Source of the DNA: Candidatus Aquidulcis sp.
GTDB taxonomy: Bacteria > Chloroflexota > Anaerolineae > UBA4142
DNA: 34,890 bases
Direction of reading: 5' to 3'
Assembly (NCBI GenBank): GCA_020723345.1
Contig: DYJA01000045.1
Coordinates: forward strand, 1-34,890
In this document: positions 5,261 to 26,899 of the stretch, one piece after another
Position numbering within the stretch: position 1 is the first letter of the stretch
Layout: the number at the start of each line of letters is the position of its first letter
Translations under genes and position numbers: made by a program
The notes under the pieces: model-generated
What the model saw: the letters and a program-made list of their open reading frames with translations, nothing else
Database searches by the model: none
What the model was told of the DNA's origin: nothing

Positions 5261-5334
5261 TTCCACGCCGACGAGAAATGCGCGCTCGATGGGTGCTTGG
5301 GCTGGGATGGTGAGTGGTTTTGGGATGGTGATTA
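5261..5334 (-). pseudogene. Orphan hflX 5' fragment, copy B
   Basis: Read on the minus strand, this encodes TIPKPLTIPAQAPIERAFLV followed by GVE, the conserved HflX N-terminus. It then breaks off exactly at the palindrome 5229-5260. The true hflX continues only beyond the GxxExxY gene, with its own copy at 4204-4282. AGAGGAG, at the NACHT gene's last codons, would be its ribosome-binding site. It is the remains of an hflX start separated from the gene body. Confidence 0.75.
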
Positions 5335-8487: not shown

Positions 8488-8585
8488 AACCCCCACCCAA
8501 CCCTCCCCCGTTTGCAAAATCCGCAAACAGGAGAGGGAATCAATCGGCATCGGTCTTCCGTCCTTCGTCTTCCGTCGTCCGTCCC
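8488..8585. repeat. Repeat elements upstream of the NACHT gene
   Basis: Positions 8488-8536 are a C-rich inverted repeat (CCCTCCCCCGTTTGC...GCAAACAGGAGAGGG). Positions 8550-8585 are a pyrimidine tandem repeat of GTCTTCCGTCC type. The G-run of the first, read on the minus strand as GGGTGGGGGTT, lies directly before the ATG and is the only visible ribosome-binding site. Confidence 0.6.
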
Positions 8586-8586
8586 T

Positions 8587-8615
8587 ATTCTACCACGCTC
8601 TGCGCTACATCTCAA
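8587..8615 (-). promoter_or_regulatory. Promoter for the NACHT gene
   Basis: On the minus strand, TTGAGA (8615-8610), a 17-base spacer and TAGAAT (8592-8587) preceded by TGG give a near-consensus housekeeping promoter with an extended -10. It overlaps the 3' end of the DUF362 gene and would give a leader of about 90 bases. The NACHT gene can therefore be expressed on its own. Confidence 0.55.
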
Positions 8616-9774
8616 CCCTGCGATAATTGATCCGCGTATAGCCGCTGCCCCACGGATTGCCGCGCTCAAAGACGCCCAGCCCCGCGAGATTCGCGAGCCG
8701 CAAATAATTGTTCGCGCCGGATTTCACCGTCCACTCAGCCGCGACAAAATCGTGCATCACGCTGTCAATTGCCACGGGATCGGTCGCGAAGAAGAGACTG
8801 TTTGGCGTCTTGCCGTCGAACGTCGCCATTGTCAGCGGCGGCGACGACCAAGTAGTACCCGCGAACAATCCGTCGCCGACGATCAGGACGGTCTTAGCGC
8901 GAATGTGTGGATTGCCGTACAGATCGACCAGTGGATTCCAGTCCGTTCTCCAGTACGCTTGATCGGGAAACGCGTTGTTGTGAAATGCCTGCGGATTGTT
9001 CGTCGAGCCGAAATGATTCTTGAAACCGAGTGTCACTTCCGCGCCGCCGATGTGTCCTTTGAGAATCGGTACGTCAATGAGGTACGTCGCGCGAATCAAT
9101 ACGTCGTTCAATTTGGTCGCCGGAGGCATGGGGGTGCCGGACGGCGGTCTGAATTGGATGTACGCGTGCGGATCGGTACTGTTAAATCCGGCTGCGGTGT
9201 GTGTCCCGTTGTCGTAAAAGCGAACGCCGGAGTACAGACAGCCGTTGATGTACCGATCCGGCACAACGCGGATTGCGTCGTAGACCCAGATGTCTTCTTC
9301 GCGCACGCCGATCAATTTCATGCCGCGCACGAGCGCATTGATCGGCTGAATGATCCCGTCGAGTACGCCGCTGCCCGAGTTGTTGAAATTCGCTTTGATC
9401 GCGATGCCTTGACCGGCGATATAGTTGGGCAAAATCTTGCGCCACGCGTCCTGGATCGTCGCGGTCGACGTCAAGTTCTGCAGACCAGCGTCCACCATCG
9501 CGTTCACCACATCCTGGTTCACATAGTTCCAATAATTCGCCTGCCCAGTCCACGTCGTCGCGCTGAGACTGTGAATGTGAACGACGCTTGGCGGGGGCGG
9601 CGGCGGCGAATATGAAATGATCGGAAAATAGTACGCGCGCGTCGGCGACGGATCCTGCGCCAGCGCGGTCGGCGCGCCCAGCCAACGTTCCAACGACGCG
9701 AGCGCCGTCCCGCCGAGAACGAATCCCGCCGCTTTGAGAATCTGCCGTCGAGTCAACAATTGTCGTTTATCCAT
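8605..9774 (-). CDS. Tat-exported DUF362 domain protein
   Basis: This protein has 389 residues. The N-terminus LTRRQILKAAGFVLGGTALA has the twin-arginine motif and hydrophobic stretch of a Tat signal, with likely cleavage after TALA near residue 40, so the protein is exported folded. A proline-rich spacer leads to a DUF362 domain (about 63-389). Conserved-looking motifs are IAIKANFNN, VPILKGHIGGAEVTLGFKNH and NSLFFATDPVAIDSVMHDF. DUF362 has no settled biochemical role; Tat use hints at a cofactor bound before export. The start is backed by AAAGGA eight bases upstream. Its DUF362 domain is a close paralogue of the C-terminal domain of the next protein upstream, so the pair arose by duplication. 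Confidence 0.85.
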   Translation of the reverse strand: MDKRQLLTRRQILKAAGFVLGGTALASLERWLGAPTALAQDPSPTRAYYFPIISYSPPPPPPSVVHIHSLSATTWTGQANYWNYVNQDVVNAMVDAGLQNLTSTATIQDAWRKILPNYIAGQGIAIKANFNNSGSGVLDGIIQPINALVRGMKLIGVREEDIWVYDAIRVVPDRYINGCLYSGVRFYDNGTHTAAGFNSTDPHAYIQFRPPSGTPMPPATKLNDVLIRATYLIDVPILKGHIGGAEVTLGFKNHFGSTNNPQAFHNNAFPDQAYWRTDWNPLVDLYGNPHIRAKTVLIVGDGLFAGTTWSSPPLTMATFDGKTPNSLFFATDPVAIDSVMHDFVAAEWTVKSGANNYLRLANLAGLGVFERGNPWGSGYTRINYRRVEM

Positions 9775-9841: not shown

Positions 9842-9944
9842 GTAGGGGCGCAACATTCGCACACACTTGCTTGTCAGTCAGCGAGTTGTGTTATACCAGC
9901 CGCGTTTGCGCAACGGCTAGTCTTGGCGAATGTTGCGCCCCTAC
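9842..9944. repeat. MITE-like inverted-repeat element
   Basis: The perfect 19-base terminal inverted repeats GTAGGGGCGCAACATTCGC (9842-9860) and its complement (9926-9944) enclose 65 bases with no open frame. Related ends are seen at 31705-31735 and, partly, at 17083-17123. It fills the gap between the two DUF362 genes. Confidence 0.85.
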
Positions 9945-9962
9945 CGGCACGCGACCACGCGT

Positions 9963-12900
9963 CTAAATTTCGATCTTCCGATACTCGATCCCCGTGTACC
10001 CCGCGCCCCACGGATTGCCGCGCTCGAACACGCCGAGACCTTGCTGACTCGCGAGGCGCAGATAATTGTCTGCGCCCGCTTTGATGTGCCACTCGGCGTC
10101 GAGGAAATCGTACATCACGCAATCAATCGCGACCGGATCGGTTGCGAAGAACAAACTGTTCGGCACTTTGTTCCCGAACGTTACCATCGTCATCACCGGC
10201 GAACCCCACGTGTTCCCCGTGAACAAACCGTCGCCAATCGTCAGCACCGTCTTGCTCTGAACGTTCGGATTGCGGTACAGGTCGACGAGCGAATTGTAGT
10301 AATTGCGAAAATTCGTCTCGCCCGGAAACATGTACGAATGATAGTCCACCGGATTGGGCACCGAGCCAAAATGATTCTTGAACCCAAGCGTCACGCCGGC
10401 GAGATCGGTATGCCCTTTGAAAAGCGGCAGGTTGATGACGTACGCCGCGTTGACCAACACATCGGTCACGCGACTGCCGGGATGCGCCGGCAGATCCGAC
10501 GGCGTCCGGAACGTGATCTGCGCGCTCGGCGCGGTACTTTCAAAACCCGCGCGGCGATGCGTCCCGTCGTCGAAAAAGAGGACGCCGGGGTACTGACACA
10601 TGTTGATGAAACGATCCGGGATGAGTTTGATCGCATCGAAGATCCAAATGTCCTGCTCGCGCACGCCGATCTGTTTCAAACCACGCACGAGCGCGTTGAC
10701 CGTTTGGATCGACGCGTCGAGGTTGCCGTTGCCGTTGTTGTTGAAGTTTACCTTGACCGCGATCCCCTGCCCCGCTTGGTAGCGCGGCAAGATCGCGCGC
10801 CACGCGTCCGCGACCGTCGGCGTGTTCGTCAATTCCATCATCCCGCGATCCAACATCGCGTTCACGGCATCTTGATTCACATAGTTCCAATAGTCCGGCT
10901 GACCGATCCACGTCGTCGCGTTGGTGTTGTAAACGTGAACGACGCGCGGTTTGGTGACCGGCGGCGTGACGACGATTTGCTGCGCGCCTTGCCGATCTTG
11001 CCACCACGCGACGTATTCCTGCACCGCGCCCGCCCAATAATTTTGCGTTTGCGCGCGCGTCAACCGGATCTTGCCCGTGATCGTGCGCGTCTCGCCGGGC
11101 GCAAGCGGCGAACCAAAGCCCCAGCGATACGGATGATCGAGTCCGGTGCGATTGTCGAACTCAATTCCGACGCGATAGTTGCCGCTCGTCGCGGGATAGC
11201 CGCGACTGGCAAACGTATCGCCTTCGACGTACTCGAAACCTGGGTCGGGTCCTTGCGTCGGCAGCGCCATCGCGCCGTCATTGCGAACGGTGATGCTGAT
11301 GTTGAGCAATTGCCCACCCAGAAGTGTCGTCGGCGAAAAAGTGACGCCGGTGATCATGATCGGTTGGCGCACGGTGACGCGTTGGACGCCTTGTCGATCC
11401 TGCCACCACGCGACGGATTCTTGCACCAGCCCCACCCAATAATCGCGCGCCTGAACACTTTTCAGACGAATCGCGCCGGTAATCGTGCGCGTTTCGCCGG
11501 GCGCGAGCGGCGTGCCGAATCCCCAGCGGTACGGATGATCGATTCCCGTGCGATAGTCAAAATCAATTCCGACGCGATAATTGCCGCCGACTTCAGTAAA
11601 GCCGCGGCTGCGGAATGTTTCGCCTTCGTCGTACTCGAATCCCGGATCGGGTCCTTGCGTTGGCGCAACCGCGCTGCCATTATTTCGCACGACGATGCTG
11701 ACGTTGAGCAATTCACCCGCGCCCAGTGTCGTCGGCGAAAATGTCGCGCTGACAATTTGGATGGTCGGCTGCGCGGGTACGACCGTGATCGCTTGCGCGC
11801 CTTGTCGATCCTGAATCCACGCGACGTACTCTTGCACTACGCCCGCCCAGTAGTTTTGCGTTCGCGCATTCTTCATCCGAATCGTGCCGGTGATCGTGCG
11901 CGTTTCGCCGGGCGCAAGCGGCGCGCCGAATCCCCAGCGGTACGGATGATCGACGCCGGAGCGCAAATCGAAATCGACGCCGACGCGATAATTGCCGCTC
12001 GTCGCGGGAAATCCGCGCGAGTCAAACGAATCGCCTTCGTCGTACACAAAACCTGGGTTCGGTCCTTGCGTCGGCAGCGTGATGATGCTGTCGTTGCGAA
12101 CCGTGATGCTAACGGCAAGCGCCTGTCCGACGCTAACGGTCGTCGGCGTGAACGTCACGTTCGTAATTTGCAAACCCGTCTGAACCGTGATCGCCGTTGT
12201 GCCCTGGCGATCCTGCAGCCACGCGACGCGCTCGTTGACCAAGCCCGCCCAGTAATTTCGCGTTTGCGGATTCTTCAAGCGGATCGCGCCGGTGATCGTG
12301 CGCGTCTCGCCCGGCATGAGCGGCGTGCCAAAGCCCCAACGATACGGATGATCGATTCCGGCGCGATTGTCGAAATCAACGCACACGCGATAAGTACCGC
12401 CGACTTCGGCAAAGCCACGAGTGCGAAACGTGTCGCCTTCTTCGTACACAAAACCTGGGTCGGGGCCCTGAGTGGGCAGCGGCGCGTCGCCATTGTTCTT
12501 CACGGTGATGCTCACCTGGAGCAAACCGCCCGCCGCCAGATTCGTCGGCGAGAAGGAAACCCGGGTAATTCCCGCCGCAACGGAATTCGGTTGCCGCGTT
12601 CGATAATCCGCGTCGAGCGCGACGCGCAAATCTTCGGCGAGCGGAGCATTTTCCTGGATACTCCACTCGGGGTGATCCTCAAGTTTTTTCCAGCGAAAGA
12701 GGACGAGCGCCTGAATCGCCTGGTTCGTCGCGACGCTATTCCACTCGTTGATCTCGCGATACGCGGTTTGGATCCAACCGATGTCTTCCTTCAGCCACCC
12801 GGCGATGGGATTGGTCTCGGTAATCAAAACGGGCAACAGGCGAAACTGTCCCGGCAGCGCGTTCATAAAATCGCGGTACATGCGAAACCGAAAATGGCGA

Positions 12901-14324
12901 TCCGTAAACGGCGGCTGCATCATTTCCTCGCTCGCAATTTGCGCGGCGACGTGATCCTGGGTGTAGCAATGCAGCGCCAACGCTTCCACCCGGCTACCGA
13001 TCAAGGCGAGGATGTCGAGCAAATATTTGACCCAATCGCCGCGCTCGTTGCCGGGATACCGCGTGTCGTTGTTGACCGGCGCAACCGCGCCCGCGACGAC
13101 CCAATCGTTGGAATGTCCGGGCAAACTCCGGATCGCCGCGCGGCATTTGGCAAAACACGCGGCGTACTTTTCCGGCGTGATCACTTCGCGCACGCCGCTG
13201 GAAATTTCCGGGCGTTCGTCGTTCAAGTTCATTTCGTTGCCGATCACCCAAATGCGCGCGCCGCGCGAGTTTTGAACGTACGCCGCGCACTTGGCGGCAA
13301 ACGCATCGTACTTGTCCGAGAGGGGAATCGTTCCCGCCGTGCTGATGCCGTTGTGCAATCGGACGATCGGCTCGATCCCGCTTTGCGCGACGGCAGAATA
13401 ATCATATCCCGTGAACAGCGAGAGATCGACGCTATGCACCGCCCACCCCATCCGATCGGCGTCCGTCAACAGGTGCTCGCCGCCGAGATCGTGAATGCCA
13501 TAAATGTTCGTCGGCAGATTCAGCGGTTGTTCGCCGCCGCCGCTTGCGCCGCCGCCTTGCGCGGCGACGTACTGCGCGATCTGGTTTCCCAACGACGCCA
13601 CGTTAAAGGTCGACCAAAGCGCGCCGCCGCCGTACTGAAAGATCGTGCCCCCGATCACATAGCCGTCTTGCAGCATCTGCTTGTCATAGTCTTTGAGAAG
13701 TTGCAAATACGTGTCGGCGGAAACGTGCGCTTGCCAGCCATTGTTGCGCCCATCATCCAAACCGCACTCGGTAATCAGAATCGGTTTGCGCGCGGAATGT
13801 GGAATCCACTGACGAAACGCGCGATAGCGCGCCCAATCGCCCGCGCCGTACGTGGGATGATAATATTCGTGCAGCGCGATATAGTCGCACATGACGATGG
13901 CGGGCATCAGCAGCGGCACCCACTCTAAACGCGGATTGCCGGTCGAGAAAGAAAACGCCGCCACTTTTTCGCCGCGCGTGTGCATCAACTGCGCGAACCG
14001 GACGTACCAATTCGAAACGGCGTGCGCGTCCGCCTCGCTCGTCAAGACCGGCTCGTTCAATCCTTCCCAGATAATACCGCGCCCGCTCAGTTTGTTGAGC
14101 GCGTCGCCGATTTCCGCGACAAACGCGTCGGCGGGATCGTTGAAACTTAGATTCGTGTATGGGCGATAGACGATCAACGTCCGGGGACAGCGGCGCCGAA
14201 TCTCGTCGATGTTCGCGTCGCTCGGAAATTCAAAGATTTTGACGAGCGGCGGTTGCATCTGCTCCAGGAGATTATAGATCCGATCGTCAAAGTCCATGAT
14301 GTGAAACGATAGTTTGGAAGGCAT
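9963..14324 (-). CDS. Giant fusion: two glycosidase-like barrels, four Ig-like repeats, DUF362
   Basis: The protein has 1453 residues. Residues 1-250 resemble a GH5/GH39-type barrel, with WEGLNEP (Glu91) and LITECGLD (Glu186) at the acid/base and nucleophile positions. Residues about 272-575 form a second barrel with IGNEMNL (Glu364) and LITETNP (Glu503). Four repeats of about 130 residues follow (about 586-1110), each with SPTTL, TQGPDPGF, DHPYRWGFG and QNYWAG motifs; the fold is probably Ig/CARDB-like. The C-terminus (about 1115-1453) is a DUF362 domain paralogous to the next gene. The start is firm: AAGGAG lies eight bases upstream and an in-frame TAA lies 36 bases upstream, so there is no signal peptide even though the domains look extracellular. 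Substrate and role are unknown. The gene follows the oxidase operon by 63 bases. Confidence 0.82.
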   Translation of the reverse strand: MPSKLSFHIMDFDDRIYNLLEQMQPPLVKIFEFPSDANIDEIRRRCPRTLIVYRPYTNLSFNDPADAFVAEIGDALNKLSGRGIIWEGLNEPVLTSEADAHAVSNWYVRFAQLMHTRGEKVAAFSFSTGNPRLEWVPLLMPAIVMCDYIALHEYYHPTYGAGDWARYRAFRQWIPHSARKPILITECGLDDGRNNGWQAHVSADTYLQLLKDYDKQMLQDGYVIGGTIFQYGGGALWSTFNVASLGNQIAQYVAAQGGGASGGGEQPLNLPTNIYGIHDLGGEHLLTDADRMGWAVHSVDLSLFTGYDYSAVAQSGIEPIVRLHNGISTAGTIPLSDKYDAFAAKCAAYVQNSRGARIWVIGNEMNLNDERPEISSGVREVITPEKYAACFAKCRAAIRSLPGHSNDWVVAGAVAPVNNDTRYPGNERGDWVKYLLDILALIGSRVEALALHCYTQDHVAAQIASEEMMQPPFTDRHFRFRMYRDFMNALPGQFRLLPVLITETNPIAGWLKEDIGWIQTAYREINEWNSVATNQAIQALVLFRWKKLEDHPEWSIQENAPLAEDLRVALDADYRTRQPNSVAAGITRVSFSPTNLAAGGLLQVSITVKNNGDAPLPTQGPDPGFVYEEGDTFRTRGFAEVGGTYRVCVDFDNRAGIDHPYRWGFGTPLMPGETRTITGAIRLKNPQTRNYWAGLVNERVAWLQDRQGTTAITVQTGLQITNVTFTPTTVSVGQALAVSITVRNDSIITLPTQGPNPGFVYDEGDSFDSRGFPATSGNYRVGVDFDLRSGVDHPYRWGFGAPLAPGETRTITGTIRMKNARTQNYWAGVVQEYVAWIQDRQGAQAITVVPAQPTIQIVSATFSPTTLGAGELLNVSIVVRNNGSAVAPTQGPDPGFEYDEGETFRSRGFTEVGGNYRVGIDFDYRTGIDHPYRWGFGTPLAPGETRTITGAIRLKSVQARDYWVGLVQESVAWWQDRQGVQRVTVRQPIMITGVTFSPTTLLGGQLLNISITVRNDGAMALPTQGPDPGFEYVEGDTFASRGYPATSGNYRVGIEFDNRTGLDHPYRWGFGSPLAPGETRTITGKIRLTRAQTQNYWAGAVQEYVAWWQDRQGAQQIVVTPPVTKPRVVHVYNTNATTWIGQPDYWNYVNQDAVNAMLDRGMMELTNTPTVADAWRAILPRYQAGQGIAVKVNFNNNGNGNLDASIQTVNALVRGLKQIGVREQDIWIFDAIKLIPDRFINMCQYPGVLFFDDGTHRRAGFESTAPSAQITFRTPSDLPAHPGSRVTDVLVNAAYVINLPLFKGHTDLAGVTLGFKNHFGSVPNPVDYHSYMFPGETNFRNYYNSLVDLYRNPNVQSKTVLTIGDGLFTGNTWGSPVMTMVTFGNKVPNSLFFATDPVAIDCVMYDFLDAEWHIKAGADNYLRLASQQGLGVFERGNPWGAGYTGIEYRKIEI

Positions 14325-14387
14325 TGCAGAATCTCCTTGTCGAGCGAATTTCCAAATTTATCGTACCGCACTGCGCGAGGGCTGTGA

Positions 14388-14657
14388 TTATGCCGTGGTC
14401 ATGATCAAAACGAGCGAAACGATCAACGCGAGCGCGCCAAAGATACCGATGGCGAAAATCCCGGCAAACACGCGGCGATCCATTTTCAGGTGCATAAAGT
14501 ACAGCGCGATCAACAACGCTTTGAGTCCGCCAAACAAAACGAGAAATGGCAACGCGGGAATCGGAAGATTGACCGCGAGGACTTCGAGTATTGTGAGCGC
14601 GATGAGCGCCGCGCCAACCGCCAAGTAATTTGTATGTTGTTTGTGTGTAGTTTCCAT
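14388..14657 (-). CDS. ctaF: Cytochrome c oxidase subunit IV (prokaryotic, ctaF-type)
   Basis: The 89-residue protein has three membrane helices (VGAALIALTILEVLAVNL, FLVLFGGLKALLIALYFMHL and a C-terminal one). The LKALLIALYFMHLKMDRRVF segment is typical of the small subunit IV of bacterial caa3/aa3 oxidases, which aids assembly and copper-site stability. It lies nine bases after ctaE as the last gene of the operon. The length is normal for the family. Confidence 0.88.
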   Translation of the reverse strand: METTHKQHTNYLAVGAALIALTILEVLAVNLPIPALPFLVLFGGLKALLIALYFMHLKMDRRVFAGIFAIGIFGALALIVSLVLIMTTA

Positions 14658-14666
14658 ATTGACTCC

Positions 14667-15266
14667 TTACATAAATCGGAGTTGCTCCGTCAAATAAACG
14701 ACCATGAAGATCAACACCCAAACGAGATCGACAAAGTGCCAGTACAAACCGGCGAGCTCGACCGGCAGATAATTGGTTGCCGAAAACGCGCCGCGCCATG
14801 CCTTGGCGACGACTGCGAGAATCCAGACAATGCCGACGATCACGTGCAGCGCGTGCAACCCGGTAACCGTAAAGTACACCGAGCCGAAAATGTTCGAACT
14901 GGGCGTCACGCCTTCCTGAATAAGATGCGCGTATTCGTTTCCTTTCAATCCCAAAAACGCCAATCCCAGGAACGCGGTGGCAAGCAGAAATTGCCACATC
15001 CGCGTCCGGCTGCCTTCTTTGATCGCTTGCAACGCCTGCACCATCGTGACGCTGCTGATCAACAAAACGATCGTCATCACGAGCGGCACGAACAGCGTCA
15101 ACACCTCGCGGGGACCGGGACCGCTAACACTGCGACCGCGATAAATCACGAACGTCGTGATGAACGCGGCAAAGAAAATACTTTCGGAAGCGAGAAAGAC
15201 CCAAATCGCCAATTTGCGATGATCGCGTTCCATCTCATATTCATTTGCCGAGATCGGGGTACTCAT
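14667..15266 (-). CDS. ctaE: Cytochrome c oxidase subunit III
   Basis: This 199-residue membrane protein has about five helices, like the short subunit III of caa3-type oxidases. Typical segments are KLAIWVFLASESIFFAAFIT near the N-terminus, GSVYFTVTGLHALHVIVGI in the middle, and LAGLYWHFVDLVWVLIFMVV at the C-terminus. Subunit III stabilises the catalytic core and proton uptake. It starts twelve bases after ctaD. Nothing is missing compared with relatives. Confidence 0.93.
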   Translation of the reverse strand: MSTPISANEYEMERDHRKLAIWVFLASESIFFAAFITTFVIYRGRSVSGPGPREVLTLFVPLVMTIVLLISSVTMVQALQAIKEGSRTRMWQFLLATAFLGLAFLGLKGNEYAHLIQEGVTPSSNIFGSVYFTVTGLHALHVIVGIVWILAVVAKAWRGAFSATNYLPVELAGLYWHFVDLVWVLIFMVVYLTEQLRFM

Positions 15267-15278
15267 GGCGAAACTCCG

Positions 15279-17081
15279 TTAGGCGGGCTGGTTGATCCAC
15301 CCAAACAACGCGGCGACGAAAATCACTAGACCGATGACGAGCGGAATCAATCCATAGATCAACCCGATCATCATAATTGTCAAACCGACGGCGAGGACCA
15401 AGGGCATAATACTTGGCGCGGGCAAATGAATCCCGTGCGCCTCTTTCGCAGTTTCCAGCGGCTTGCCGCCATGCTTGACGTCCCACAACGGGCGGCGGCT
15501 GGCGACGCTTGGAATTTTCGCAAAGTTGTACACCTGCGGCGGGGACGAAGTTGCCCACTCTAGTGTGTCGCCGTCCCAGGGATCATCGCCAGCGAGTTTC
15601 CCATTTTTCAAACTCACCAGGATGTTGTACAGGAAAACGATCATCGCCGCCGCCAGGATGAACGCACCAACCGTCGCGAGTAAATTCAGCGGGTCCCAAC
15701 CGAGATTCGCGGCATAGGTGTAAATGCGGCGCGGCATCCCCTCCAGTCCGAGGATGTGCATCGGAAAGAACGTCAGATTCGTTCCGATAAACTGCAACGC
15801 AAAATGAACGATGCCGAATCGCTCGTTCAACATGCGACCGGTCATCTTGGGAAACCAATAATAGATCGCGGCGAAAATAGCAAGGATACTTCCGCCGAAC
15901 AATACATAGTGCAAATGCCCGACGACAAAATACGTATCCTGAACTTGGAAATCAATCGGCACCGTCGCGAGAAAGATGCCGCCCAAGCCGCCGATGATAA
16001 AAAGCGCGATGAATCCCACCGCAAACAGCAGCGCGGATGTGACGCGGATCGAACCGCCCCACATCGTCGCGATCCAATTGAAAATCTTGATCGCGGTTGG
16101 CACGGCGATGATCATGCTCGCAAGCGCAAAGACCGCGTTGATCACTGGCGCCATTCCGACGGTGAACATGTGATGCGCCCACACCGCAAAGCCGATGAAA
16201 CCAATCGCGACGGACGAGTACGCGACTGCCGCATAGCCGAAAAGCGGCTTGCGCGAAAAGACCGGCAGCACTTCGGAAATGACGCCCATCGCCGGCAGGA
16301 TCAGAATGTACACTTCGGGATGTCCAAAGAACCAGAACAGGTGCTGCCACAACAGCGGATCGCCGCCGCCAGCCGCATCGAAGAAAAATGTTCCGACGCG
16401 CCGGTCGAGAAAGAGCAAAATCAACGCGGCGGAGATGCTCGGCATCGCAAACAAGATCAAGAACGCCGTGACGAGATTCGTCCAAACGAACATCGGCATT
16501 CGATTCAATTTCATGCCGGGCGCGCGCAGCCACAACGTCGTCACGACAAAGTTGAGCGAAGTCAGGATCGACGAAATGCCGAGCAGTTCCAAGCCCCAGA
16601 TCCAAAAGTCGACGCCGGTCGTCGCCGAATATTGCGCGCTCGTGAGCGGCGCGTAGCCAAACCACCCCGCCGCCGGCGCGCCGCCCGAAAGGAAACTTGA
16701 ATTGAGAAACACGCCCCCCAGAATGAAAATCCACAAACCCAGCGCGTTGAGACGCGGATACGCCATATCGCGCGCGCCGATCAACAGCGGCACCATGTAA
16801 TTCGCCAATCCGATCAGTAATGGCATCACGGCGAGAAAAACCATCGTCGTGCCGTGCATCGTGAAAATTTGATTATACAGTTCCGGGTTGAGCACCTTGA
16901 GATTCGCTTCCGCTAATTGAATGCGAATCAACATCGCCTCCAATCCACCGACGAGCAGAAAAAACATCGAAGCGGCGATGTACATCAACCCGATACGTTT
17001 GTGGTCAACGGTCGTCAGCCAAGCCATTGCGCCGGAGTACTCGCGGCGCGCGGCTGACGCCGAGACTGCCTCAGAAGACAT
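15279..17081 (-). CDS. ctaD: Cytochrome c oxidase subunit I (A-type heme-copper oxidase)
   Basis: Catalytic subunit of 600 residues that reduces oxygen to water and pumps protons in the cytoplasmic membrane. Ligands are visible: MHGT (His76, low-spin heme), GHPEVY (His254 and Tyr258, the CuB His-Tyr pair, with Glu256 marking the A1 type), WAHH (His303/304) and VGHLHY (His389/391). About 12-14 helices are present. The C-terminal extension (about 510-600) with two extra helices is common in Chloroflexota and Bacillota enzymes. The ribosome-binding site GGGGGGAG lies at the edge of a short repeat in the 38-base gap after ctaC. It is transcribed as part of the ctaBCDEF operon. Confidence 0.96.
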   Translation of the reverse strand: MSSEAVSASAARREYSGAMAWLTTVDHKRIGLMYIAASMFFLLVGGLEAMLIRIQLAEANLKVLNPELYNQIFTMHGTTMVFLAVMPLLIGLANYMVPLLIGARDMAYPRLNALGLWIFILGGVFLNSSFLSGGAPAAGWFGYAPLTSAQYSATTGVDFWIWGLELLGISSILTSLNFVVTTLWLRAPGMKLNRMPMFVWTNLVTAFLILFAMPSISAALILLFLDRRVGTFFFDAAGGGDPLLWQHLFWFFGHPEVYILILPAMGVISEVLPVFSRKPLFGYAAVAYSSVAIGFIGFAVWAHHMFTVGMAPVINAVFALASMIIAVPTAIKIFNWIATMWGGSIRVTSALLFAVGFIALFIIGGLGGIFLATVPIDFQVQDTYFVVGHLHYVLFGGSILAIFAAIYYWFPKMTGRMLNERFGIVHFALQFIGTNLTFFPMHILGLEGMPRRIYTYAANLGWDPLNLLATVGAFILAAAMIVFLYNILVSLKNGKLAGDDPWDGDTLEWATSSPPQVYNFAKIPSVASRRPLWDVKHGGKPLETAKEAHGIHLPAPSIMPLVLAVGLTIMMIGLIYGLIPLVIGLVIFVAALFGWINQPA

Positions 17082-17082
17082 A

Positions 17083-17123
17083 GCGCTCCCCCCATGCGGG
17101 CAGGCACACGGCGCTGCCCCTAC
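17083..17123. repeat. Short C/G-rich palindromic repeat between ctaC and ctaD
   Basis: Read on the minus strand it starts GTAGGGGCAGCGCCGTGTGC and continues CTGCCCGCATGGGGGGAG, resembling a degenerate member of the GTAGGGGC family seen at 9842 and 31705. It begins at the ctaC stop codon region and its G-run appears to serve as the ctaD ribosome-binding site. Confidence 0.5.
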
Positions 17124-18130
17124 TTGAGTGTCAGAAGGTAAGCCGTCAGCGCGTCAAGCGTTTTATCATCCAGCGGCACTTTGGGCATTTTCGTTCCGGG
17201 TTTTTCCGCCGCCGGATCGCGAATCCACGCGCGTAGATTTTCCGCGTTGAGCGGAAGCATACCGGCGGCAATCGTCTTGCGACTTGCGATGTGCGTTAAA
17301 TCGGGACCGAGAATGCCCCGCGCCGATGTGCCATTGATCGCGTGACATGCTTGGCAGCCCACCGTCGTCATGAGTTGCAAACCTTGCCGGGTTTGATCCG
17401 TCGTGGGCGCGGGCGCGGGAAGTTTTTGCTGCGCCACCCACGCGTTGAACTGATCGACCGGCGCGACATTCATCGTAAATCGCATCTGCGCGTGCGCGGT
17501 GCCGCAAAACTCGGCGCACTGCCCTTGATAGATCCCAACTTTCGTCGGACGCAACCACAGTCGATTCGTGTGTCCTGGGATCATGTCCATCTTGCCGCCC
17601 AATTCGGGCACCCAAAAACTGTGAATGACGTCGTTTGAATTAAGCGTGAATAATATGTCTTGTCCAGCGGGAACGTAAATTTCGTTCGCGGTGACGATGC
17701 CGAGATCGGGATATTCGACGCGCCACCACCACTGATAGCCAGTTACTTTGACATTCATCGCATTCGGTGGGATCGCCGCCAGCGAGATTAGCGTCTGCCA
17801 GGTCAGCCAGAACACAACTACAAGCACAAGCGCCGGGATTGTCGTCCAAATCATTTCGAGTTTCGGGTTGCCGTGAATTTGCGCCGGCATTTCGTCGGCT
17901 TTTTTGCGCCGAAAGCGAATGACCGAAAAAAATAAGAGCGATTCGACAACGACGAACACGACGAGCGCGATCGCAAAGAGAACGAAGAAAAGATCAGAGA
18001 CGAGCGCGGCGTTCGGCGAAGCGGGCGACAACGCCGCGGGAGCCCCGGCACACCCGGAGAGGGTGAGCGCGCCCAGCGCGACAAAGATCAAGCGAATTGT
18101 GTTTGAGAGAATTGGACGAATTGAGATCAT
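17120..18130 (-). CDS. ctaC: Cytochrome c oxidase subunit II with fused cytochrome c (caa3-type)
   Basis: The protein has 336 residues. A lipobox TLSGC gives a predicted lipidated Cys27. Two membrane helices follow (about 42-70 and 92-115), then the CuA cupredoxin domain with GYQWWW, His170 and the CAEFCGTAHAQM set (Cys205, Glu207, Cys209, His213, Met216). Residues about 245-336 are a class I cytochrome c domain with CQACH (259-263) and Met315 in GTKMPKV as the axial ligand. The fused heme domain defines the caa3 type, so electrons can enter without a separate cytochrome c. All copper and heme ligands are present. It lies 21 bases after ctaB. Confidence 0.96.
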   Translation of the reverse strand: MISIRPILSNTIRLIFVALGALTLSGCAGAPAALSPASPNAALVSDLFFVLFAIALVVFVVVESLLFFSVIRFRRKKADEMPAQIHGNPKLEMIWTTIPALVLVVVFWLTWQTLISLAAIPPNAMNVKVTGYQWWWRVEYPDLGIVTANEIYVPAGQDILFTLNSNDVIHSFWVPELGGKMDMIPGHTNRLWLRPTKVGIYQGQCAEFCGTAHAQMRFTMNVAPVDQFNAWVAQQKLPAPAPTTDQTRQGLQLMTTVGCQACHAINGTSARGILGPDLTHIASRKTIAAGMLPLNAENLRAWIRDPAAEKPGTKMPKVPLDDKTLDALTAYLLTLK

Positions 18131-18151
18131 GACGCATCTCCCTAGAATTGC

Positions 18152-19024
18152 TCAAACGAAGAATTGCAAGATACTCGCGTCGACGATCATCGCGCCAAAC
18201 AACAACGCGAGGTACACATTCGAGTACACGTACAGCCGCCGCGCGGTGCGTTTGGAACCATCGCGCATGAGCCGGAACGACAAGTACACAAACCATCCGC
18301 CCAACAACAGCGCGGCGATCAAGTACAACCCGCCGAGATCGCGCATCGAAAAGGGCAGCAGCGTGATCGCCACCATCAACAGAGAATAGAGCGCGATCTG
18401 ACGACGCGTTTCGGTTTCGCCCAGAACGACCGGCATCATCGGCACGTGTACCTTTGCATAGTCTTTGCTGACCATCAACATCAAAGCCCAGGTGTGTGGC
18501 GGCGTCCAGTAAAAGATGATGAGAAACAAAAAGATCGCGAATAGGTTGACCTCGTCCGTTACGGCTGCCCAACCGACCAGCGGCGGGATCGCGCCTGCCA
18601 CGCCGCCGATCACGACGTTTTGCGGCGTGCGGCGTTTGAGCATCACGGTGTACACGATGACGTAGTAAATCAATCCGAGCAGCGCCAACACCGCGCTCAA
18701 GAAATTCACAAACACGATGAACGCGAGCACGCCCAGCGCGCTGCATACCAATCCAAAGATCAACGCGGCGCGCGGCGCGATTTTTCCGGTCGGAATTGGT
18801 CGGCGCGACGTGCGTCCCATCTGCGGATCGATATCGCGATCGATGTACGAGTTGAGCGCGCTCGCACCGCTCGCCGTCAGCGCGCCGCCGAGCAGCGTGA
18901 AGACGAGGATTTGTGGCTCGGGGAATCCACACGCGGCGACTAGCATCGCGGCGAGTGTGGTTGCGAGCAACAGCGCGACGATCCAGGGTTTGACGAGTGT
19001 GAAATAGTTGTGGATCATTTCCAT
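18152..19024 (-). CDS. ctaB: Protoheme IX farnesyltransferase (heme O synthase)
   Basis: This 290-residue membrane prenyltransferase, with about nine helices, adds a farnesyl group to protoheme to make heme O, the precursor of heme A for the oxidase. The UbiA-family aspartate motif NSYIDRDIDPQMGRTSRRP (58-76) binds the Mg-diphosphate, and TPPHTWALMLMVSKDYAKV carries the second conserved site. The start is at 19024 or at the second ATG six bases on, which is better spaced from GGTGGA. It is the first gene of the operon, as in many ctaBCDEF clusters. No ctaA (heme A synthase) is in the window. Confidence 0.94.
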   Translation of the reverse strand: MEMIHNYFTLVKPWIVALLLATTLAAMLVAACGFPEPQILVFTLLGGALTASGASALNSYIDRDIDPQMGRTSRRPIPTGKIAPRAALIFGLVCSALGVLAFIVFVNFLSAVLALLGLIYYVIVYTVMLKRRTPQNVVIGGVAGAIPPLVGWAAVTDEVNLFAIFLFLIIFYWTPPHTWALMLMVSKDYAKVHVPMMPVVLGETETRRQIALYSLLMVAITLLPFSMRDLGGLYLIAALLLGGWFVYLSFRLMRDGSKRTARRLYVYSNVYLALLFGAMIVDASILQFFV

Positions 19025-19143: not shown

Positions 19144-21900
19144 TTAGGTAACCGAGATGTTCTGCGTACCTTGCAAATCCTGGACCCACGCGACGTACTC
19201 TTGCACCAAGCCCGCCCAATACTTTTGCGATTGTTGGTTCTTCATCCGGATCGCGCCGGTGATCGTCCGCGTTTCGCCGGGCGCGAGCGGAGTACCAAAG
19301 CCCCAACGATACGGATGATCGAGACCGCTCCGGTTGTCGAAATCGATCCCGACGCGGAAATTGCCGCTGACTGCCGCAAACCCGCGCGAAGCGAACGTCT
19401 CGCCTTCTTCGTACACGAATCCCGGATCGGGTCCTTGCGTCGCGAGCGACTGATCGCTATCGTTCCGCACCGTGATGCTGACGTTGAGCAATCCGCCCAC
19501 GTTGAGCGACGTCGGCGAGAAGGTCACCGCGGTGATCGCCGCGCCGGGCGTCACCTTGATCGGCGTCGTGCCGACGCGATCTTGCAGCCACGCGACGTAC
19601 TCGTTCACCAAGCCCGCCCAATAGTTTTGCGATTGCACTTTGCGAAGGCGAATCATGCCGGTAATCGTGCGCGTCTCGCCCGGTCCCAACGGCGAGCCCA
19701 GTCCCCACCGGTACGGATGATCTTGTCCCGTGCGATTGGCAAAATCGATGCCGACGCGAAAGTTTCCGGTCTGAGATGGGAAACCCCGGCTGATAAACGT
19801 ATCGCCTTCTTCGTACACGAATCCGGGCTCGGGTCCTTGCGTTGGCACAGAACCACCGCCGCTATTTCTCACTGTAATACCGACGACCAAGTATTGCCCC
19901 GAAGGCACCGTCAGCGGAGAAAGCGTTACGTTTGTGATTTCCGCCGAGACCGGCGCGACCGTCACACTCGTCGTGCCGACCTTGTCCTGAATCCACGCGA
20001 CGTACTCTTGTACGAGCCCGCCCCAATACTTTTGTGTCTGCACTTTGTTCAGGTGGATACCGCCGGTGATCGTGACCGACTGCCCCGGTCCGAGTGGCGC
20101 GCCAAAACCCCAACGATACGGATGATCCAAGCCGGTGCGATTATCGAAATCGACGCCCACGCGGAAATTGCTCGCGTCGGCGGGAAAACCGCGGCTCGCG
20201 AACGTGTCGCCTTCCTCGTACACGAATCCGGGTTCGGGTCCCTGAGTGGGCATGGTCGACTCACCGTCGTTGCGAACGGTGATGCTCACGTTCAACACTT
20301 GCCCGGCGTTGAGCGAGGTCGGCGTGAATTCGACCGTCTCGATCACCAAACCCGAAGTGACGGAAATCAATTGGCTGCCGGCTTTGTCTGCCAACCACGC
20401 GGTTTGCTCTTGCACCAAACCCGCCCAATAGTTGCGCGATTGAATCGTCGTGAGTCTGATCGATCCGGTGATCGTCGCCGATTGTCCGGGGGCAAGCGGC
20501 GCGCCAAGCCCCCAGCGATACGGATGATCGATCCCCTTGGTGCCGTCGAAATCTACGCCAACGCGGAACGCGCCTTTCACGTCGGGGAAACCGCGCGTCG
20601 CATACGTGTCCCCTTCTTCGTATGCGAATCCTGGCTCGGGTCCCTGCGTCGACAGGGTTGCCGTACCGCCGTTCTTTACGGTGATGCTCACGTTCAACGT
20701 CTTGCCGACGGCAAGCGTGGTTGGCGAAAAAGTCACATTGGAAATCGAGGACAATTTGAATGCCGCCAAAACATCGCCGCGACCTTTGCCTTGCGTATTC
20801 GCGTCTAGTCCCAAATTCTTCGCCGAATTCATCAACGCGTCTTTGACTTGCTGCGGCGAGTATGTCGGATTGGCTTCGAGGAGCAACGCACACGCGCCGG
20901 CGGCATGTGGCGTCGCCATCGAAGTACCGGACAATATCGAATAGCCCGGCTCGGAGGCAGGCGTACCGATGCGCGCTTCGCGCGCGCGCGCCGCGGTAAT
21001 GTGTACGCCGGGGAAACAAATGTCGGGCTTGACCCGCCCATCCAGCGTCGGACCGCGCGATGAAAAGTTGGCAATGTCGTCGAATTTGTCCGTCGCGCCG
21101 ATCGTCATGACCAAGCGCGCGCATGCGGGCGATCCCAGCGTGCCGGGACCGGGTCCTGAATTACCGGCTGCCACACAAACGCAGACGCCGGCTTGCACGG
21201 CAGCATCGCAAAACACGGCGATCGCGTCGGTCCCGTCACAATTGCTCGAAGTGCCCAACGACAGGTTGATCACCTGGACGCCTTGCTGAACTGCCCAATC
21301 GATCCCGCCCATCACCGCGCTAAACGAACCGGAACCATCGCCGCCCAAAACTTTGGCGATGTAAAACACACACTCGGGGGCGACGCCTTTGTATTTGCCA
21401 TTGCCTCCCGCGCCAGAGCCGCCGATGGTACTCGCGACGTGTGTGCCATGTCCGTTGGTGTCTTCCAAGCCCTCGCCCGAAAAATCTACGCGCGCGATAA
21501 TCCGCCCCGCAAAATCAGGGTGAGTTGCGTCAATGCCGGTATCCACGACGCCAACCTTGATGCCTTTACCAGTCGAACCGAGTTGCCAAACCTGCGGCGC
21601 GTTGATCAGCGGCACCGACCCGTCCAGCATCGTCGTGACTCTTCCGTCCAGCCAGATGATTTCGACGTCGTCGCGATTGCTCAGCGCCTCGATGCCCGCC
21701 GTGGTCGCGCTCAACGCGCTCGCCGGGATGAGTGAGTACGTGCGATGCGTTGCGACCACGCCCGGAATCGGCGCGGCAGCGCGCGGCGTGTTCGCGCGGA
21801 ATTTGACAATGACGCGCAGCGGCGCTTGCGTCGCCGCCACCGTGTGCAAATTGAGCGCGTCGAACAACTGGGGGTGAATCTTGGACATGTTTGTTGTCAT
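19144..21900 (-). CDS. S8 subtilisin-like serine peptidase with four Ig-like repeats
   Basis: The protein has 918 residues. Residues about 25-90 look like an I9-type propeptide (LRVIVKFRAN...VEIIWLDGRV). The peptidase domain has the full triad: Asp120 (VVDTGID), His151 (NGHGTHVAS) and Ser327 (GTSMATPHAAG), with the oxyanion Asn247 in AAGNSG. From about 387 to the end there are four repeats of about 130 residues of the same Ig-like type as in the giant fusion protein at 9963-14324 (SPTTL, TQGPEPGF, DHPYRWG, NYWAG). The start has a strong AAAGGAGG site. No signal peptide is visible, although the family is normally secreted. The gene has its own terminator. It probably degrades extracellular protein; the export route is unclear. 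Confidence 0.92.
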   Translation of the reverse strand: MTTNMSKIHPQLFDALNLHTVAATQAPLRVIVKFRANTPRAAAPIPGVVATHRTYSLIPASALSATTAGIEALSNRDDVEIIWLDGRVTTMLDGSVPLINAPQVWQLGSTGKGIKVGVVDTGIDATHPDFAGRIIARVDFSGEGLEDTNGHGTHVASTIGGSGAGGNGKYKGVAPECVFYIAKVLGGDGSGSFSAVMGGIDWAVQQGVQVINLSLGTSSNCDGTDAIAVFCDAAVQAGVCVCVAAGNSGPGPGTLGSPACARLVMTIGATDKFDDIANFSSRGPTLDGRVKPDICFPGVHITAARAREARIGTPASEPGYSILSGTSMATPHAAGACALLLEANPTYSPQQVKDALMNSAKNLGLDANTQGKGRGDVLAAFKLSSISNVTFSPTTLAVGKTLNVSITVKNGGTATLSTQGPEPGFAYEEGDTYATRGFPDVKGAFRVGVDFDGTKGIDHPYRWGLGAPLAPGQSATITGSIRLTTIQSRNYWAGLVQEQTAWLADKAGSQLISVTSGLVIETVEFTPTSLNAGQVLNVSITVRNDGESTMPTQGPEPGFVYEEGDTFASRGFPADASNFRVGVDFDNRTGLDHPYRWGFGAPLGPGQSVTITGGIHLNKVQTQKYWGGLVQEYVAWIQDKVGTTSVTVAPVSAEITNVTLSPLTVPSGQYLVVGITVRNSGGGSVPTQGPEPGFVYEEGDTFISRGFPSQTGNFRVGIDFANRTGQDHPYRWGLGSPLGPGETRTITGMIRLRKVQSQNYWAGLVNEYVAWLQDRVGTTPIKVTPGAAITAVTFSPTSLNVGGLLNVSITVRNDSDQSLATQGPDPGFVYEEGETFASRGFAAVSGNFRVGIDFDNRSGLDHPYRWGFGTPLAPGETRTITGAIRMKNQQSQKYWAGLVQEYVAWVQDLQGTQNISVT

Positions 21901-22024: not shown

Positions 22025-22936
22025 TCACCGATTCTCCAGCCAAGTCTGCAAGACCTTGCCGACGCGTTCCAGACTGTCGCCGGAAACCTTGTCGGCGGTG
22101 TCTTGCGTTGTGTGCCAGTACGGATAATCGAAATCGATAATGTCGATCGCGCGGATGCCGCGCTGCAAGAACGGCGTGTGATCGTCCGACATCGACCATT
22201 TGGGTTGCGCGATAAACTGCTTGCCGAAACCAAGCCGCGCCGCGATTTCCCATAATTGCTGCTGCAGTTGCGGATCAGAATTTCGCTCGTAATAAATATT
22301 TTGATCCGCGTCGCCGATCATATCGACGACGACGACGAACTCCGGCTTGACCGGCAACTTGGCGGCAAAATATTCCGCGCCGACCGACCAATGCCAGGGC
22401 GCGTTGTCGCAGGGCGGCGGCGCGACGACGCAGCCACTCAAATCGCCGTTGTCCTCCGCGTCGAAAAAGGCGAGCCACACCTCGTTCTTCAATTTCGAAA
22501 CGTCGAGCGTGCGCGCGAGTTCGAGCAAGACTGCGACGCCGCTCGCGCCGTCGTTCGCGCCGGGGACCGGCGCGGTGGGATTCGCCTTGTCCTGATCGGC
22601 GCGTGGACGCGTATCGTAATGCGCGCCGAGAATGATAACTGGTCCCCTGCCCTCGCCGTTCTTGCCAACGACATTTCGCACCGGCACATTGCGAAAAGTA
22701 AATTCCTGTGTTTCAGTTTTCCACTGCGCGTCTTTCAATTGCGCGAGAATATAATCGCCGGTCGCGCGCCCCGCCGCGCTGCCCGCCGGGCGCGCACCCA
22801 GGTTCATCTGCGCTATCAAGTACGTTTGGTACGCGTGCGCACCGTCAAAAGTTTTGGGCGCACTCGACGCGCATGCAACACCGGCGAGCAGCAAACAAAA
22901 AACGCAAACGAAAAATGAGACGCGGAGGATTCGCAT
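22025..22936 (-). CDS. Exported M28 zinc peptidase, glutaminyl-peptide cyclotransferase-like
   Basis: The protein has 303 residues. The N-terminus VSFFVCVFCLLLAGVACA is a signal sequence ending in a possible but poor lipobox. The M28 zinc ligands appear in order: GAHYDTR (His), PGANDGASG (Asp), FFDAEDNGD (Glu), VDMIGD (Asp) and YWHTTQD (His). The segments WSVGAEYFAA and SDDHTPFLQRGIRAIDIID resemble bacterial and animal glutaminyl cyclases, which convert N-terminal Gln to pyroglutamate, more than classic aminopeptidases. Either activity is possible. It lies on the same strand upstream of the subtilase and could act with it on extracellular peptides. The ribosome-binding site AAAGGGAAG is a little distant. 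Confidence 0.82.
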   Translation of the reverse strand: MRILRVSFFVCVFCLLLAGVACASSAPKTFDGAHAYQTYLIAQMNLGARPAGSAAGRATGDYILAQLKDAQWKTETQEFTFRNVPVRNVVGKNGEGRGPVIILGAHYDTRPRADQDKANPTAPVPGANDGASGVAVLLELARTLDVSKLKNEVWLAFFDAEDNGDLSGCVVAPPPCDNAPWHWSVGAEYFAAKLPVKPEFVVVVDMIGDADQNIYYERNSDPQLQQQLWEIAARLGFGKQFIAQPKWSMSDDHTPFLQRGIRAIDIIDFDYPYWHTTQDTADKVSGDSLERVGKVLQTWLENR

Positions 22937-23059
22937 AGTGTTTTCTTCCCTTTGAAATTTTGAGCAAAACGTTTGTTGTATTCACTCGCCTACACGAATA
23001 CAACGAAACTATATCACCACTTGGAACGTTTCGCAAATCCAAGTCGCACGATTTCGCTT

Positions 23060-23087
23060 TTGCATTTTCCACTTTCTCGACTATAAT
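23060..23087 (+). promoter_or_regulatory. Candidate promoter for the polysaccharide cluster
   Basis: TTGCAT (23060-23065), a 16-base spacer and a perfect TATAAT (23082-23087). It would give a leader of about 185 bases containing the palindromic element at 23108-23259. Confidence 0.4.
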
Positions 23088-23107
23088 CATCTCAGCCCTA
23101 TTCAATC

Positions 23108-23259
23108 TGTCATTTCGAGAATACATACCGCCGCGCGGTATGTTTACGGGCAGATCGAATGTTGCGCGGGCGGCTCGCCCGTCGCAGAGCGAGCCAGCGG
23201 CTCGCGCAACGCGGCAACAAAAAGCGTTGCTCTGCTCAGGACGTCTCCTCGAAATGACA
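23108..23259. repeat. Composite nested palindromic element
   Basis: Outer inverted ends TGTCATTTCGAG (23108-23119) and CTCGAAATGACA (23248-23259) enclose a perfect 9-base hairpin ACATACCGC/GCGGTATGT (23123-23143). They also enclose a REP-like unit (23161-23210) with ends GTTGCGCG and CGCGCAAC related to the elements at 1-55 and 140-194. It looks like one repeat nested in another. Confidence 0.8.
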
Positions 23260-23279
23260 TAGCCATCAGGAGTATTTCC

Positions 23280-24389
23280 GTGCGGATTGGCATCGACGCG
23301 CGCTTGGTTTTCTATCACCAAGCCGGAATCGGTCAATATATTCTGCGCCTGACCCAGGCGCTCGCGCAGATCGATCGCGATGACGCGTTCGTGATCTTCA
23401 AAAGTCGCAAAGACAAAACACCCATCGTCGCTCAACCCAATTTCAGGCGACAGGACTTGTGGACGCCCAGCCATCATCGCTTTGAACGTTTGGCCATGGC
23501 GGGCGAACTCGCGCCGTTCGCGCTCGATGTGCTGCACAGTCCCGATTTCATTCCGCCGGCGTGGACGCGTTGTTTCTCTGTGATCACGATGCACGATCTC
23601 GCGTTTATGCTCTATCCACGTTTTCTCACCCGCGACAGCGCGCGCTATTATGGACAGGTTGACCTCGCCGCGCGCCACGCCGATCACATCATCGCCGTGT
23701 CCGAGAGCACCAAGCGCGATACGATTCGTTTGCTCGGCGTGCCCGAATCGAAAATCACGGTCATCCACGAAGCCGCCCACCCGCTTTTCGAGCCGATTGC
23801 GGACAACGGCGCCGGAGAATTTGTCCGCGCGCATTACAATTTGCCTTCGGAATTCATTTTATTCGTCGGCACGATCGAGCCGCGCAAAAATTTGCCGACG
23901 CTCTTGCGCGCGTTTCGACGATTGCGCGACAATTATAAATCGGAAGCCGTGTTGGCAATTGCAGGCAATCGCGGCTGGCTCGTCGAAGATGTGGACAAGG
24001 TGATTGCCGAATTGCAACTCGGCAATGCGGTGCGCTTTCTCGGCAGTGTTCGGAATGAAGAATTAGTATATCTCTACAACGCGGCGAAACTATTCGTCTT
24101 TCCGTCGCTCTACGAAGGATTCGGTTTGCCGCCGCTCGAAGCGATGGCGTGCGGCACGCCGGTGATCGTTTCCAACGTTTCGTCGCTGCCCGAAGTCGTC
24201 GGCGATGCGGGACTGTTGATCGATCCCCAAGACGTGGAAGCGCTGACCGTCGCGATGTGGCGCGTGCTGACCGACGACAAATTGCGCCATGAACTATCGG
24301 AAAAAGGTTTGAAACGCGCGCAAACATTTTCGTGGGAGCGCGCCGCGCATGAGACGCTCGCGGTGTATCGCCAGGTTGCGCAAAAGTAA
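23280..24389 (+). CDS. GT4-family glycosyltransferase
   Basis: The protein has 369 residues and a GT-B fold. The N-terminal half (IDARLVFYHQAGIGQYILRL) is the acceptor side. The C-terminal half has [18 protein letters not shown] and the nucleotide-sugar signature [20 protein letters not shown] with the E-x7-E pattern of retaining GT4 enzymes. The start is GTG with an AGGAG seven bases upstream. It is the first gene of a plus-strand exopolysaccharide cluster and would act in the cytoplasm on a lipid-linked glycan. It resembles mannosyltransferases such as MtfB/WbaZ, but the sugar cannot be told. It is a paralogue of the gene at 26900. Confidence 0.88.
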   Translation: MRIGIDARLVFYHQAGIGQYILRLTQALAQIDRDDAFVIFKSRKDKTPIVAQPNFRRQDLWTPSHHRFERLAMAGELAPFALDVLHSPDFIPPAWTRCFSVITMHDLAFMLYPRFLTRDSARYYGQVDLAARHADHIIAVSESTKRDTIRLLGVPESKITVIHEAAHPLFEPIADNGAGEFVRAHYNLPSEFILFVGTIEPRKNLPTLLRAFRRLRDNYKSEAVLAIAGNRGWLVEDVDKVIAELQLGNAVRFLGSVRNEELVYLYNAAKLFVFPSLYEGFGLPPLEAMACGTPVIVSNVSSLPEVVGDAGLLIDPQDVEALTVAMWRVLTDDKLRHELSEKGLKRAQTFSWERAAHETLAVYRQVAQK

Positions 24390-24424
24390 TCCGCACACAT
24401 TTGAGACTGTAGCACTTGCGCCGG

Positions 24425-24458
24425 TTCACCAACCGCAGAGGCGCAGAGAGCGCAGAGT
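24425..24458. repeat. Intergenic repeat (CCGCAGAGGCGCAGAGAGCG type)
   Basis: AACCGCAGAGGCGCAGAGAG followed by CGCAGAG is a short tandem CGCAGAG array. It lies just before the second glycosyltransferase gene. Confidence 0.6.
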
Positions 24459-24478
24459 TTACTGATGGCACATTTGAA

Positions 24479-26829: not shown

Positions 26830-26870
26830 TTCGATAGTGCAATAATCGCACTATTGCGCTAACGAACTAT
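26826..26870. repeat. Two-tier hairpin in the gap between glycosyltransferase genes
   Basis: Outer arms ATAGTTCG (26826-26833) and CGAACTAT (26863-26870) enclose inner arms ATAGTGC (26834-26840) and GCACTAT (26848-26854). It begins at the stop codon of the upstream gene. It could fold in RNA or act as a cruciform; there is no T-run for a classic terminator. Confidence 0.65.
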
Positions 26871-26881
26871 TGCACGACTTG

Positions 26882-26890
26882 TGGTATAAT
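26882..26890 (+). promoter_or_regulatory. Extended -10 promoter next to a start codon
   Basis: TGG followed by a perfect TATAAT (26885-26890) lies nine bases before the ATG at 26900. Initiation about seven bases after the -10 would give an almost leaderless mRNA. Confidence 0.45.
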
Positions 26891-26899
26891 GGAAGTGGA

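Follow-up and report, generated by a model that had tools for sequence, protein, structure and literature searches.

Enzymes of glycoside hydrolase (GH) clan GH-A share a layout in which an Asn-Glu acid/base follows strand 4 of the barrel and a Glu nucleophile lies at the end of strand 7; the clan includes the GH39-type enzymes and PslG, which belongs to the Psl exopolysaccharide system. DUF362 is a widespread family without known function that keeps landing beside sugar-cutting or sugar-building genes, and it shares Pfam clan CL0471 with LarA (DUF2088) (PMC11770544). Proteins combining DUF362 with CBM9 and dockerin modules were reported in 2017 (PMC5742341). Here, we describe a gene in which two GH-A-like barrels, four immunoglobulin (Ig)-like repeats and a DUF362 domain are joined on one chain. 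It lies at positions 9963-14324 of the minus strand of a 34,890-nucleotide stretch (the window; contig DYJA01000045.1) from Candidatus Aquidulcis sp., assembly GCA_020723345.1 (6.3 Mb, 132 contigs, 95.5% complete; hereafter G000). We tentatively read its product as a modular surface-glycan glycosidase with a LarA-fold partner domain, a reading in which we infer the catalysis, the substrate, the extracellular location and the reaction of DUF362. Two aspects are of particular interest, namely, the role of DUF362 and the missing signal peptides.

The gene is one uninterrupted open reading frame, with its ATG placed 63 nt past the stop codon of a coxD-like gene, preceded by an AAGGAG ribosome-binding site and by an in-frame stop 10 codons upstream. 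The order of its modules, with borders set by profiles made from the protein's own parts, is as follows:

9963..14324, minus strand: whole gene, 1453 amino acids, single open reading frame
13548..14324, minus strand: barrel 1, residues 1-259, clan GH-A-like, E91/E186 (AlphaFold2, alignment of relatives, hhalign to barrel 2)
12594..13517, minus strand: barrel 2, residues 270-577, clan GH-A-like, E364/E503 (AlphaFold2, VIA, alignment of relatives)
12237..12569, minus strand: Ig-like repeat 1, residues 586-696 (profile)
11832..12170, minus strand: Ig-like repeat 2, residues 719-831 (profile)
11421..11759, minus strand: Ig-like repeat 3, residues 856-968 (profile)
11019..11354, minus strand: Ig-like repeat 4, residues 991-1102 (profile, AlphaFold2, VIA)
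9969..10952, minus strand: DUF362, residues 1125-1452, predicted LarA-like fold (PF04015, VIA, subfamily alignment)

A Pfam scan of the protein recognised DUF362 alone, and neither the whole protein nor either of the two profiles found a significant relative among PDB sequences. The AlphaFold2 model of the two-barrel part, built on an alignment of 30 relatives (mean pLDDT 91.6), nevertheless contains two complete (beta/alpha)8 barrels of eight strands each. In barrel 1, N90-E91 follows strand 4 and the glutamate of an ITE motif, E186, ends strand 7; in barrel 2, the same places are taken by N363-E364 and the ITE glutamate E503. Both barrels thus match clan GH-A in modelled fold and in predicted site layout. 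The Asn-Glu glutamate E91 and the ITE glutamate E186 are invariant among 17 barrel 1 sequences, and E364 is invariant among 17 barrel-2 relatives, 15 of which also retain E503. The initial annotation had already proposed two glycosidase-like barrels with the Asn-Glu and Thr-Glu pairs typical of retaining enzymes, followed by four Ig-like repeats, a C-terminal DUF362 and, next door, a free-standing DUF362 with a twin-arginine translocation (Tat) signal, and all of these components were recovered in our analysis; the outcome that it named as refuting, a structure prediction showing no barrel, did not arise.

Barrel 2 is nearest to GH39-type enzymes, including PslG, and then to GH1 in the VIA structure comparison (Z 18.7-22.5 overall, 20-22.5 for the GH39-type enzymes), with PslG itself matching at Z 20.8, a root-mean-square deviation (rmsd) of 3.1 and 17% identity over 264 residues. 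It shares the fold and the Glu pair with PslG and the GH39 enzymes but has no significant match to a sequence family and belongs to a protein that has several barrels and no signal peptide. The VIA rows for the two-barrel model mostly cover barrel 2; for barrel 1, the nearest fold was taken from Foldseek, from the secondary structure of the AlphaFold2 model and from comparing its profile with those of barrel 2 and a Glyco_hydro_cc-type barrel. By profile comparison, the two barrels are homologous (hhalign 96%, E 2.5e-9). The Pfam family Glyco_hydro_cc (PF11790, GH128-type) matches the barrel that replaces barrels 1 and 2 in two related proteins (L052 and L064) and, weakly, one barrel-2 relative, whereas neither barrel of the fusion protein reaches any Pfam cut-off. 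Given that no significant sequence match to GH39, GH128, GH5 or GH26 was obtained for either barrel in Pfam or NCBIfam, we do not file them in any named GH family. A phage origin was also considered and rejected: the whole protein has no PHROG match, barrel 2 has no phage match by tblastn, and the viral fold search returned general glycosidase barrels.

The C-terminal domain matches PF04015 over the full profile length (E 8.9e-13), scoring 49.2 bits where the cut-off is 24. Its model (pLDDT 84.8) retrieves malate/lactate racemases in VIA at Z 12.7-15.4, with no other fold in that section of the list and the best match to 6d6z (Z 15.4, rmsd 3.0, 211 residues), so that DUF362 is predicted to have the LarA/malate-racemase fold. 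An alignment of the 11-member DUF362 subfamily shows H1305, K1316 and H1329 to be invariant. In a profile alignment to LarA, H1305 falls on the second catalytic His and K1316 on the cofactor Lys, equivalences that are tentative because the alignment is weak (hhalign probability 0.4%). DUF362 shares the modelled fold with the superfamily and may share the Lys and one His in a matching motif. It differs in that, of LarA, only the N-terminal domain is matched and no His aligns with the first catalytic His; H1329 lies 13 residues past K1316, beyond the reach of the alignment. LarA homologues with a single His exist, but the one that they have lost is the other catalytic His, on which H1305 falls here (PMC12611868).

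Could DUF362 hold the nickel-pincer nucleotide (NPN) of LarA and isomerise a 2-hydroxy-acid group on a glycan? The fold and the weakly aligned H1305 and K1316 would fit such a role, and PF04015 also scores one LarA-family gene of G000. However, G000 has no larC (no PF01969 match) and no true larE (no TIGR00268 match above the cut-off; larB was not searched for), and the presence of the DUF362 subfamily does not track larC across the genomes searched, three of which (G002, G004 and G008) carry larC and larE close together. Since both maturation genes are missing from G000, the NPN cofactor is not supported, and together with the 0.4% alignment probability and the catalytic position without a His, this leaves the NPN enzyme a distinctly improbable explanation. 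The unknown redox or cofactor domain of the initial annotation can be sharpened to a LarA-type fold, but the obvious cofactor for that fold is not supported. Despite the lack of larC and larE, G000 carries five Lar_N (LarA-family) genes, at C24:60309-60914 and in four other places.

A survey of 396 genomes of the window's class identified Ig-DUF362 fusions in five of them, all in the window's family and each in a different genus. Four of the five, from four genera, carry an N-terminal glycosidase-type barrel, in three arrangements:

Barrel 1, barrel 2, four Ig-like repeats, DUF362: the window
Barrel 1, SH, three Ig-like repeats, DUF362: L054
Glyco_hydro_cc-type barrel, four Ig-like repeats, DUF362: L052
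The same Glyco_hydro_cc-type arrangement, cut by a contig edge so that it starts within the barrel: L053
Tat signal, Ig-like repeats, DUF362, without a barrel: L055

The fused DUF362 domains and the Tat-type paralogue form one clade (100/99), and the tree therefore suggests that a single DUF362 lineage became joined to the Ig-like repeats while the barrels were exchanged. Other genomes of the family encode further combinations (barrel 1-barrel 2-four Ig-SH-barrel 3-SH, barrel 1-four Ig-barrel 2, and S8-four Ig), and the barrel part has its closest homologue (74% identical) in L030, where the contig ends after the first Ig-like repeat. Given that the barrel-barrel-Ig and the Ig-DUF362 junctions each recur independently in other genomes, the fusion is more than chance; it is a variant within a family of shuffled modules, not a lone oddity. 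Only in the window were all four parts seen in this exact order. The fusion is neither isolated nor, as regards the joining of DUF362 to carbohydrate-active modules, new as such, since the DUF362-CBM9-dockerin proteins likewise carry both on one chain (PMC5742341); those proteins possess binding and cellulosome modules, whereas the fusion protein has barrels and Ig-like repeats, with no CBM9 or dockerin in the Pfam scan. In L054 (8139-15119), two neighbouring barrel-1 paralogues end differently, one with DUF362 and the other with a third type of barrel, providing a snapshot of C-terminal domain exchange.

A profile search recovered 20 strong copies of the Ig-like repeat across seven proteins of G000, which include the fusion protein, an S8 subtilase of the window and five more, among them one protein with DUF2961 and one with a Glyco_hydro_cc-type barrel. 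In the AlphaFold2 model, the repeat resembles CARDB, the Ig/Fn3 domains of glycoside hydrolases and the Wzt carbohydrate-binding domain (VIA, Z about 9), and it stays below the Pfam cut-offs of the CARDB, DUF11 and BatD-type Ig families (BatD, the best, 23.4 bits against 24.1; CARDB, 14.9 against 22.7). Because the repeats are the common denominator of this protein set, they likely act as a spacer or surface binder.

Other genes of the window that bear on the fusion are the following:

8605..9774, minus strand: free-standing Tat-type DUF362 paralogue, 389 amino acids (Pfam, N-terminus, alignment)
14387..19024, minus strand: ctaB (UbiA)-coxB-coxA-coxC-coxD block, directly upstream (Pfam)
19144..21900, minus strand: S8 subtilase carrying the same four Ig-like repeats (Pfam, profile)
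22025..29486, both strands: M28 peptidase (minus) divergent from glycosyltransferases and a sugar transferase (plus), an exopolysaccharide-type block (cross-genome comparison)

The paralogue is the next gene, 188 nt beyond the fusion gene; it bears the twin-arginine N-terminus TRRQILK and is 61-62% identical over the domain. Three other genera (L029, L055 and L060) retain the exopolysaccharide-type block at 66-81% identity, and in all four genera, including that of the window, an Ig-repeat protein is found beside or near it. Outside the window's family, we compared the neighbours of 24 free-standing DUF362 loci of the same subfamily with those of 18 controls taken from the same genomes. At least one gene for an AMP-ligase, AsnB, NAD-synthase-like protein, WbuX or acyltransferase-3 was present at 12 of the DUF362 loci (AsnB at 8, AMP-ligase at 7, acyltransferase-3 at 7, NAD-synthase-like at 4 and WbuX at 2) and at none of the controls, and in several loci the order ligase-AsnB-NAD-synthase-like-DUF362-acyltransferase is co-directional. 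Among the nearest NCBIfam names are an exosortase-A-associated ligase and amidotransferase, neither of which reaches its cut-off; a literature search on clusters of exosortase-associated ligases and amidotransferases found nothing. Both the nearby exopolysaccharide cluster and the neighbours of free-standing Tat-DUF362 proteins point to surface glycans and, with the fusion of barrel-2 relatives to peptidoglycan amidases, agree with the surface-glycan connection put forward in the initial annotation. Individual examples of such loci are L192, L194, L197, L198, L205 and L091, in which AMP-ligase, AsnB-type amidotransferase, NAD-synthase-like protein or WbuX, Tat-DUF362 and acyltransferase 3 follow one another in one direction, although some of the loci lack one or more of these genes.

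The fusion gene gives DUF362 a concrete hypothesis, that of a LarA-like fold, Tat-exported or fused to surface-type enzymes, with a ligase/amidotransferase/acyltransferase operon and glycosidase barrels as partners. An NAD synthase beside a LarA-fold protein is reminiscent of the LarA cofactor, whose synthesis starts from the NAD precursor nicotinic acid adenine dinucleotide (NaAD). Carried further, DUF362 might be an exported LarA-fold domain that carries out redox or isomerase chemistry on surface glycans; its cofactor would then not come from LarB, LarC and LarE and would perhaps be supplied by the flanking AMP-ligase, AsnB and NAD-synthase-like genes, so that fusion to the barrels would let one chain cut a glycan and alter its sugar or acid substituent; we regard this extension as a long shot.

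For the fusion protein as a whole, our tentative reading as a surface-glycan glycosidase would work as follows. Each N-terminal barrel would be a retaining clan GH-A-type glycosidase, with E91 and E364 as the putative acid/bases and E186 and E503 as the putative nucleophiles. At the cell surface, the barrels would cut or rearrange, by hydrolysis or transglycosylation, the cell's own exopolysaccharide or wall glycan, while the four Ig-like repeats would serve as spacers between the parts and probably as surface binders, and DUF362 may act on or bind a group on the same glycan through LarA-fold chemistry. Several observations weigh against this reading. The protein has no GH family match at E<=0.1 in Pfam or NCBIfam, and the nucleophile E503 is replaced by Ala in 2 of the 17 barrel-2 relatives. 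The ligase and AsnB operon genes are absent around the fused gene, so that part of the context argument is borrowed from relatives, and the neighbour comparison took its seeds from DUF362 loci that are related by descent. Finally, no signal peptide is evident on the fusion protein or on any barrel-led relative, including proteins with three amidase domains, by a simple hydrophobicity measure (not a trained signal-peptide predictor), and for this reason the extracellular site stays an inferred one. The maximum N-terminal hydrophobicity of the fusion protein is 0.43, compared with 1.5-2.4 in exported neighbour controls; one barrel-2 relative (L082) reaches 1.6, but within its barrel.

The missing signal may be meaningful in itself, if the protein works in the cytoplasm, recycling or trimming the precursors of glycans. 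Strand 1 of barrel 1 begins at residue 5 in the AlphaFold2 model, leaving no space for a signal, yet Tat-type signals are present on the Ig-DUF362 protein of L055 and on the adjoining DUF362 paralogue, and relatives bear peptidoglycan amidase domains, all of which makes a cytoplasmic role unlikely. We consider equally unlikely an endolysin-like wall enzyme that has no signal since it is released by cell lysis, and that cuts peptidoglycan as its amidase-fused relatives would. Across the class, barrel-2 relatives without signal peptides are fused to Amidase_2 (one to three amidase domains in some), M23 peptidase or LysM, and their amidase parts match phage endolysin families. Neither barrel 2 nor the whole protein has a phage or PHROG match, respectively, however, and the version in the window's family lacks the amidase and has cox and exopolysaccharide genes as neighbours, not those of a phage. 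The E503-to-Ala replacements would fit barrels that have lost catalysis and serve as glycan-binding scaffolds, but both glutamates are kept, in their Asn-Glu context, in all barrel 1 sequences and in 15 of 17 for barrel 2, and such a loss appears improbable. To an assembly or gene-calling artefact, suggested by the occurrence of the four-part order in one genome only, we give almost no credence, as each junction recurs elsewhere and the frame is single and unbroken.

The class-wide barrel-2 proteins with Amidase_2, M23, LysM, F5/8C or NBR1-Ig domains share the barrel and the lack of an evident signal peptide with the fusion protein, but have these other partners and no DUF362. Amidase, M23 and F5/8C-type domains act outside cells. 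Thus, the glycosidase and amidase proteins of the class look extracellular yet are without signal peptides, which raises a testable question on protein export in these bacteria. Barrel-2 proteins from other families that combine N-acetylmuramoyl-L-alanine amidase, M23 or F5/8C domains with no evident signal peptide are L074, L075, L076, L077, L078, L079, L080, L082 and L087. Export by a contractile injection system is unlikely for G000, in which no sheath gene (PF04984) was found, nor was one found in 12 of 14 genomes of the family.

The S8 subtilase encoded at 19144-21900 has a propeptide-like N-terminus ahead of its four Ig-like repeats and, like the barrel-led proteins, no evident signal peptide. 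In L030, the counterpart of this subtilase directly adjoins the closest barrel 1-barrel 2-Ig homologue; in the window, the ctaB-cox genes lie between the two. Antisense to the fusion gene, a 1332-residue open frame (9930-13928, plus strand) mirrors the repeats of the gene in its sequence and is, for that reason, most probably a shadow frame. Positions 5332-8550 (minus strand), immediately downstream of the gene for the Tat-DUF362 protein, encode a DUF4062-NACHT-HEAT protein, a STAND-like NTPase with a defence-type architecture.

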